DNA of 35,497 bases from Bacillota bacterium (GTDB lineage: Bacteria > Bacillota > Sulfobacillia > JAJYWN01 > JAJZPE01), in the NCBI GenBank assembly GCA_036504675.1, contig DASXUT010000198.1:1-35497 (forward strand). Reading direction: 5' to 3'. Under the pieces are notes generated by a model that saw only the letters and a list, made by a program, of their open reading frames with translations, was not told the origin of the DNA and did not search any database. Both the position numbers and the translations under genes were made by a program. Shown piece by piece: positions 2,443 to 35,497 of this stretch. Each line of letters starts with the position of its first letter. Positions within the stretch are counted from its first letter, which is position 1.

Positions 2443-2489
2443 CGTGAATGGGGTTCAGGAGGCCGTGAGTTCGAATCTCACCACTCCGA
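2443..2489 (+). other. 3' fragment of tRNA-Pro(GGG), putative att site
   Basis: The fragment reads as the 3' half of a class I tRNA. The anticodon stem 2443-2447/2455-2459 has four of five pairs. The anticodon loop ATGGGGT (2448-2454) has U33, GGG at 2450-2452 and G37. The variable loop AGGCC is at 2460-2464. The T arm GTGAG-TTCGAAT-CTCAC spans 2465-2481, the acceptor 3' strand CACTCCG 2482-2488, and discriminator A is at 2489. A CxGxGTG/CACxCCG acceptor with A73 is characteristic of tRNA-Pro. The matching 5' strand CGGAGTG and D arm are absent upstream, so this is not a functional tRNA gene. No CCA is encoded. It looks like the target-site copy left by integration. Confidence 0.75.
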
Positions 2490-2493
2490 CGGG

Positions 2494-2537
2494 AAAAAGC
2501 CAGGTACGACGCGGGTTTGCGGCGGCCTGGCTTTTTT
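2494..2537 (+). terminator. Intrinsic terminator of the original tRNA-Pro gene
   Basis: AAAAAGCCAGG (2494-2504) pairs perfectly with CCTGGCTTTTT (2526-2536) around a 21-nt loop and ends in six T residues (2532-2537). It begins five bases after the tRNA discriminator base, as expected for the tRNA's own terminator, and could act in both directions. Confidence 0.8.
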
Positions 2538-3168: not shown

Positions 3169-4258
3169 TCGTGGCGAAGTCGCCCTCGAAGACTTCGACG
3201 CCGAAGTCCGGCGGCAATTGAAGGATGAAGCCGATGGTTCCCTATTTGACGATGTCTTGTTCAGTCAGGTGATGGCGGCGGCGGTCCGCAGCCGTCTGGT
3301 TGCCCCTGACCGCCATCTGGAGCGGCTGGGCCGCGGGCGGCCTCGGTCCCCGGCCGGGCCGTTGCGCCGGTGCCTGGTTGTCGCCGTCGTCGGCGCCATA
3401 CTGGCCACCGGCTCCGCGGTGGCCTGGCCGCGGGTGGCCGGCGAGGTGGGACTGGGCGACTACCCGCCCGGGGTGACCCTGGTCGCCGAGGGCAAGGAGC
3501 CGCAGCCCGGGGAGCCAAGGCCGGGAAGACCCGCGCCGATGCCGTTCCCGCACGACCTGCGGATCGCGGCGGACCCCTACCCGGTCGCCACCGGACAGGC
3601 GCTGACCATCGAGTCCGATGCCGGTTGGCCCGGCCAGCGGGTCTGGGTCTACGCCGCCCCGGGGCGGGACCAGGGTGTCCTGTTCTACCAGAAGCAGCTG
3701 CCGCGCGACGTGATCCTGCTCGGACGGGCGGGGATCGACGCCGACGGGCGCTGGTCGCTCGATTGGGTCGTCCCGGATAGACTGGAGCGCGGGGAAGAAA
3801 GTCTTCTCATCGGGGGCGCCGAGTCGCTGGTCTACGTGGTGGGGGTGACCGACTCGGGCTACCTGGCGGCCACCGGTCTACCGGTCGGGCCGGCCCGGAC
3901 CCTGAGCGTATCGCCGGACCCGGTCGCCGTCGGGCGGGAGATGGTCCTCGAGGGAGCGGGTTACCCAGCCGGCCTCAAGCTGCGAATCGACCTCCTCCAC
4001 GACCGGCCGGAGGGCGGGACCGACCTGCAGGTGATCATCGGCTGGGTGGTGACCGACCAGGACGGACGGTTCACCTTCCGGTACACCCTGCCCGACCGGT
4101 TGAACTGGCCGTATGCCGACAATAAGGGAACGATGGCCGATCACTGGCTGGACGTCGGCCAGGGCGGACGATACTACCTCCAGGTCCTCGAGAATCACCC
4201 CGGCCTCGGGCCGGGGCCGCACCTGTTCAAGCGGGTGAACGTGACCGTCGGGTCATAG
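3152..4258 (+). CDS. Single-pass membrane protein, putative anti-sigma partner
   Basis: A protein of 368 residues starting at GTG, preceded by AGGGAGGGTGG and overlapping the sigma gene by 17 bases. Residues 1-72 are charged and cytoplasmic, residues about 74-92 form one membrane helix, and the rest is probably outside the cell. The outer part begins with a Pro-rich linker and then has two related beta-rich segments. They start near residues 135 (AADPYPVATGQALTIES) and 250 (SPDPVAVGREMVLEG) and read like repeated immunoglobulin-type folds. The cytoplasmic part has no zinc-binding HxxxCxxC anti-sigma motif, so the anti-sigma role rests on gene overlap and topology only. A membrane stress or envelope sensor is the likely alternative. 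Confidence 0.6.
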   Translation: MRRRGDRGEVALEDFDAEVRRQLKDEADGSLFDDVLFSQVMAAAVRSRLVAPDRHLERLGRGRPRSPAGPLRRCLVVAVVGAILATGSAVAWPRVAGEVGLGDYPPGVTLVAEGKEPQPGEPRPGRPAPMPFPHDLRIAADPYPVATGQALTIESDAGWPGQRVWVYAAPGRDQGVLFYQKQLPRDVILLGRAGIDADGRWSLDWVVPDRLERGEESLLIGGAESLVYVVGVTDSGYLAATGLPVGPARTLSVSPDPVAVGREMVLEGAGYPAGLKLRIDLLHDRPEGGTDLQVIIGWVVTDQDGRFTFRYTLPDRLNWPYADNKGTMADHWLDVGQGGRYYLQVLENHPGLGPGPHLFKRVNVTVGS

Positions 4259-34908: not shown

Positions 34909-35497
34909 ATGGTGCGTTTCCTGGCCTTGGACCAAGGGCAGGTAGTCATGGGAGCCGATTGGCAAGCCCTGTCGGATGTCCGTCAGGCTGGGGCCGAGGC
35001 CCTCTGGGTAGATCTTGTGTCCCCCTCGGAAGAGGATCTCGAGACGATAGGGGCGGCCTTCGGGTTCCACCCCCTGACCCTGGACGACTGCCGTGACCGG
35101 CAGCACCGGGCCAAGGTCCGGGAGTTCGAGGGCCACTTCTTCGCCATCCTCAACGCGGTCGGCCGCCGGCAGAACGGGGAGCGGTTGGTCATCTCGGCCA
35201 CCGAGATCGACTTCTTTGTCGGTCAAAACTACGTCGTCTCGGTCCACCGGGACCAAGTCGGGGCCATCGACACCTTCTGGGGGCAGGCCAAGCGGGCCGA
35301 GGTCTTGCGGCAAGGGGCCGATTTCCTCTTCTACTACCTCTGCGACCTTATCGTCGACGAGCATTTCCCGATCCTCGACCGGATCGATGGGCTCCTAGAC
35401 AAGCTGGAGGCGCGCGCCTTCAGCCAACCAGATCAGGCGGTCCTGAAGGAACTGTTCCACCTGAAGCGGCAACTGATCCACCTTCGCCGGATCCTCG
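34909..35497 (+). CDS. corA: CorA-family divalent metal transporter, 3' truncated by window edge
   Basis: The first 196 residues of a CorA/MIT-type magnesium or cobalt channel are visible. The frame is open to the end of the window. They match the cytoplasmic N-terminal domain: ALWVDLVSPSEEDLETIG, then FHPLTLDDC, EFEGHFFAILNAV and FFVGQNYVVSVHRD, followed by the long stalk helix that starts FYYLCDLIVDEHFPILDRID and continues LFHLKRQLIHLRRIL. The two membrane helices and the GMN pore motif would lie beyond the window. ATG 34909 follows GAGGTGA by four bases. It is not obviously linked to the catabolic island and starts a new unit. Ion specificity cannot be told from this part. Confidence 0.9.
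   Translation, partial: MVRFLALDQGQVVMGADWQALSDVRQAGAEALWVDLVSPSEEDLETIGAAFGFHPLTLDDCRDRQHRAKVREFEGHFFAILNAVGRRQNGERLVISATEIDFFVGQNYVVSVHRDQVGAIDTFWGQAKRAEVLRQGADFLFYYLCDLIVDEHFPILDRIDGLLDKLEARAFSQPDQAVLKELFHLKRQLIHLRRIL

Follow-up and report, generated by a model that had tools for sequence, protein, structure and literature searches.

An orphan tRNA-Pro(GGG) 3' half as the probable attR of a temperate-phage-like element in an uncultured bacterium

Integration by a tyrosine integrase at a tRNA gene splits the gene, which is then restored by the element itself, and the regenerated gene and the displaced fragment mark the endpoints of the element, as described in the Islander work, which catalogues prophages and islands (PMC4383910). 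In elements of the Islander type, as described there, an intact regenerated tRNA gene lies beside the integrase and the displaced 3' fragment at the opposite end, and the same arrangement is found here. The mechanism is no different from the one described there; what differs is the setting, with tRNA-Pro(GGG) as the target, an uncultured bacterium as the host and an element split over contigs. The locus is also comparable to temperate phages with a lysis module and accessory genes at the right end. Here too lysis-type genes followed by an accessory gene pair lie beside attR, and the integrase and repressors lie at the opposite end (as seen in the contig of a relative). In contrast to such phages, structural genes were not seen here, the body of the element being unassembled. 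The integration is of the standard, already well known kind and leaves the general understanding unchanged, the element itself being a new instance.

The window (the whole stretch of DNA that was analysed, 35,497 nucleotides) is the entire contig C198 of genome G000, an assembly of 3.28 Mb in 199 contigs. Its features, from left to right, are the following.

1 to 330, + strand: endolysin-like M23-family peptidase, C-terminal part, running off the contig end (PF01551, 1.4e-18)
327 to 755, + strand: hydrophobic protein of 142 aa (open reading frame)
763 to 813, + strand: inverted repeat resembling a terminator, downstream of the lysis genes (80% identity to L035:1-50, the start of the attP contig of relative G002)
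924 to 1598, + strand: DUF433 protein with an N-terminal HTH (PF04255, 1.3e-8)
1599 to 2024, + strand: PIN-like DUF5615/PIN_10 protein (PF18478, 5.6e-13; PF18480, 7.4e-7)
2309 to 2332, + strand: tandem arm-type repeats TTGCTAATCA, copies at 2310 and 2322 (matching copy on the integrase side, C102:810)
2445 to 2490, + strand: probable attR core, orphan tRNA-Pro(GGG) 3' half (45/46 identical to the intact gene of the genome)
2491 to 2537, + strand: intrinsic terminator flanking attR on the chromosomal side (fold and terminator scan)
2538 to 34900, no strand assigned: chromosomal flank, an ECF sigma factor and then a purine/pyrimidine-catabolism cluster, no integrase
34909 to 35497, + strand: CorA-like gene, running off the contig end (73% DNA identity over 439 bases to the G001 gene, L037:3887-3452)

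Read from the sequence, the orphan half comprises the anticodon loop ATGGGGT (2448-2454) with the anticodon GGG (2450-2452), the 3' anticodon strand TCAGG (2455-2459), a five-base variable loop, the T-arm GTGAG-TTCGAAT-CTCAC (2465-2481), the acceptor 3' strand CACTCCG (2482-2488) and the discriminator A (2489), CCA not being encoded. The acceptor 5' strand and the D arm are absent upstream of 2445, and ARAGORN found no complete tRNA in the window. The hairpin and T run that follow (2494-2537) fold at -26.2 kcal/mol and were recovered by the terminator scan too. The initial annotation had described a tRNA-Pro(GGG) 3' half running from the anticodon arm to the discriminator base and followed by its terminator, a description confirmed by the 45/46 match, the fold and the scan; its statement that the gene lacks the acceptor 5' strand and D arm likewise holds. 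It had also taken the 5' anticodon strand at 2443-2447 as tRNA, which stands for the last three bases and fails for the first two, since these derive from the element (CGTGA here, CCTGA in the intact gene). A non-tRNA RNA at this site was considered and rejected, an Rfam scan of the window having given nothing.

The whole-genome search with positions 2400-2540 of the window gave one related tRNA site, C102:857-945 on the minus strand, with 83% identity including the terminator (E ~1e-18), a likeness far beyond chance. ARAGORN places an intact tRNA-Pro(GGG) there (C102:900-974, minus strand), and the core common to both contigs, TGAATGGGG...CTCCGAC, has the same base at all but one of its 46 positions (45/46). 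The single difference falls in the T-loop, and this one-base mismatch between the core copies speaks against the explanation that we favour below. An integrase gene lies directly past the terminator of the C102 tRNA, with its 3' end towards the tRNA and its other end cut by the contig end. That is how an attL is classically laid out. The initial annotation had anticipated, upstream on the same contig, an intact tRNA-Pro(GGG) with a shared segment of at least 45 bp and an integrase beside it; both were found, but on C102, the window being a complete contig whose end falls within the element. A further point against the favoured explanation is that the fragmented assembly leaves C102 and the window unjoined, so that attL and attR have no physical link here and gene order alone ties them.

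Two relatives, G001 and G002 (the latter of the same family as G000), were compared at this site. On C102, as in both relatives, thrC-thrB lie directly upstream of the tRNA-Pro, with 68-74% DNA identity, and in G001 and G002 the tRNA-Pro(GGG) after thrC-thrB is intact and the element of G000 is not there. The comparison with relatives proposed in the initial annotation thus came out in favour of its reading of an element boundary, with a complete tRNA gene at the orthologous locus and the element absent. On the other side, a CorA-like gene (the name being our reading of the protein) lies downstream of the tRNA-Pro in G000 and G001 in equal orientation. Since thrC-thrB upstream and the CorA-like gene downstream are ordered as in G001, C102 and the window in all likelihood flank one locus, and neither chance nor misassembly would be expected to yield such agreement in gene order. 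As a separate observation, in G001 and G002 TTTGGCGTTCRCTT-type direct repeats follow the tRNA-Pro terminator (L018/L036, L009/L037); these may be the arm sites of some other element and would then mark an integration hot spot.

Besides its intact tRNA-Pro(GGG) on C209, which serves as attB for that genome, G002 carries another, partial copy on C162, an orphan 3' half. The order there is a lysis-end-like terminator, paired arm repeats, the orphan tRNA half with a terminator almost identical to the C102 one behind it, a further set of paired arm repeats and the integrase, after which come IrrE-like, Xre-type and HTH_17 genes. Since right arm, tRNA half, phage terminator and integrase follow one another uninterrupted, C162 is the phage-side junction, attP. 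When the flanks of the G000 element were joined in silico (the 5' part of the C102 tRNA with the window from 2445 onwards), an intact tRNA-Pro(GGG) of 75 bases resulted; joining the ends of the element (the window up to 2444 with the core and integrase side of C102) gave a sequence holding no tRNA and matching the attP of G002 at 79% over 418 bases. In both joins the restored site, attB or attP, falls precisely at the core common to the two contigs.

The integrase itself (C102:1-816) is a tyrosine integrase (PF00589, 7e-24), and its counterpart on C162, which is full length at 378 aa, is 83% identical over the shared part. In other genomes of the class, genes for tRNA-Thr, -Val, -Gln, -Ser, -Trp, -SeC and further tRNAs adjoin related integrases; proximity to a tRNA gene is thus usual in this integrase family. 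Matches in public phages were all distant, below 60% identity; the best match was 39% among viral contigs and about 40% among genome contigs. Arm repeats stand on both sides of the element in G000 and G002 alike, those in the attP of G002 being paired repeats TTGTCAATCA and TTGCCAATCA at equivalent places (277, 289 and 527, 538). They are presumably arm-binding sites of the integrase.

Crossovers at tRNA genes often fall in the anticodon loop. Taken together, the observations above make it almost certain that window 2445-2490 is the attR of a temperate-phage-like element inserted by a tyrosine integrase into the host tRNA-Pro(GGG). The element would have brought along a tRNA 3' half of its own, and strand exchange inside the shared segment, most likely in the loop ATGGGGT between the CCTGA and TCAGG arms, would have joined the host 5' half to the 3' half of the element. 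A functional chimeric tRNA-Pro would thereby have been kept at attL on C102, beside the integrase gene, and the original 3' half of the host left stranded at attR. The element would then occupy the window from 1 to ~2444 and continue on contigs that the assembly leaves unjoined, with the chromosome resuming at ~2490. The attL and attR, the attP and attB of a relative, the integrase and the common gene order are seen directly; the exact crossover point, a tailed-phage body and current activity of the element are what we infer. The right boundary of a phage-like element is thus fixed in an uncultured bacterium, and attL, attR, attP and attB are now given for this integrase family.

The chromosomal flank to the right of attR contains, between 7482 and 34103, a long co-oriented nucleobase-catabolism cluster that resembles anaerobic purine/pyrimidine degradation clusters. 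Its members include a YgeY-type hydrolase, a dihydropyrimidinase/hydantoinase, SsnA-like amidohydrolases, a YgeW-related carbamoyltransferase, a carbamate kinase, a PreA-like dehydrogenase and aldehyde ferredoxin oxidoreductase-like proteins. An amidohydrolase-like frame at 4267-5184 matches its family at the C-terminal part only and is probably a decayed or frameshifted gene.

The terminator on the chromosomal side of the core (2491-2537) resembles the own terminator of the element, and this bears on another reading of the flank, that of stacked integration: an element that had entered this tRNA gene before would have left its remnant on the right side of the orphan half, and the stretch 2490-2545 would be an old terminator of phage type rather than the chromosome's original. 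The BLAST similarity to the terminator of the element extends to ~2545, the genome has no more than three terminators of this style (GGTTTGC...GCTTTTT), of which this att pair accounts for two, and the terminators that follow tRNA-Pro differ in G001 and G002. The distance from tRNA-Pro to the CorA-like gene is also suggestive, being 32 kb in G000 versus ~4.6 kb in G001. However, the region right of the core holds neither a second integrase nor arm repeats, and we therefore do not claim a second element; moreover, the third copy of the terminator style sits between ordinary genes. On balance such stacking is unlikely. The likeness of the terminators may mean either that the phage lineage at one time acquired a host terminator along with the tRNA half, or that the one in the window was left behind by an earlier element. 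A more far-reaching version, to which we give little credence, would have one phage after another dock at tRNA-Pro(GGG) in this lineage, stacking there and leaving terminators as traces, the 32-kb nucleobase cluster having come with an earlier, now integrase-less element. The third terminator copy, of the GGGTTTGC-loop style, is found at L005 (G000:C190) 4137-4184; as an att site it was ruled out, having no tRNA part and no integrase.

Returning to the integration of a temperate-phage-like element, its phage nature is suggested by a lysis gene, the M23 peptidase, in the window and by a lysogeny module in G002. The lysis-like genes and the toxin-antitoxin pair had been placed on the side of the missing tRNA half, and the element does lie on that side; the peptidase, the hydrophobic membrane protein and the pair (1-2024) make up its right end. 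The best PHROG match of the peptidase is a lysis endolysin family, its other matches being tail tape-measure families. By position and composition the 142-aa protein next to it would be holin-like; it gave no Pfam or PHROG match and had no relatives in the viral contigs or in G001 and G002, with one weak match elsewhere in its own genome. No capsid, portal or terminase gene could be tied to the element, and a single portal gene sits on an unlinked contig, C108; like the tentative status of the holin-like protein, this weighs against the favoured explanation. It is the fragmentation of the assembly that kept capsid and tail genes from being connected with the element. Searching the own genome with the IrrE-like gene for the left part of the element gave only a 43% match, on C191, which probably belongs to another element.

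This lack of head or tail genes tied to the element, with the portal gene on an unlinked contig, would also fit an integrative island, a satellite or a conjugative element using the same tRNA-directed tyrosine integrase, and M23 peptidases occur outside phages too. Against this stand the matches of the lysis-type peptidase to phage endolysin and tape-measure families and the attP contig of the relative, where an integrase and IrrE-like, Xre repressor and HTH_17 genes form a module of lysogeny type, and we regard an element of this sort as quite improbable. Finally, truncation of the tRNA gene by misassembly or local rearrangement without site-specific integration, which the initial annotation had named as the alternative and which the fragmentation into 199 contigs and the single-contig window could invite, is excluded for practical purposes by the attP contig of an independent genome, which shows the phage-side junction on its own account, by the joined ends, which recreate both of these sites, attB and attP, precisely where the cores coincide, and by a gene order on both sides like that of the relatives.

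The accessory genes that stand between the lysis genes and attR in the temperate-phage-like element are two neighbours, one with an antitoxin domain and the other with a PIN-like toxin domain, the DUF433 protein likely being the antitoxin and the PIN-like protein the toxin. Toxin-antitoxin pairs of the DUF433/DUF5615 (PIN-like) type have the same Pfam domains in directly adjacent genes; the antitoxin here differs in an extra N-terminal HTH region, and PADLOC left the pair unmatched. G002 carries a second attP, on C245 (L134 1431-4065), next to the same pair in the same order, and the DUF433 protein of the window is 55% identical to its homologue there. The C245 integrase shares 58% identity with its C162 counterpart, and the att core on C245 is read as the 3' half of a tRNA-Val(CAC). 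C162, in turn, lacks the pair. Among the 31 genomes searched, the PIN-like protein was found in the window and beside the C245 attP only. Since the pair recurs beside a second attP and its PIN-like protein is in no other of these genomes, the putative toxin-antitoxin pair beside attR is cargo of the phage family. Two lysis-end terminators of the GGGGACCGG...CCGGTCCC type (~790-812 and 2071-2098) bracket the pair in the window, and C162 of G002 has one copy and no pair, a pattern that may point to insertion of the pair as a cassette.
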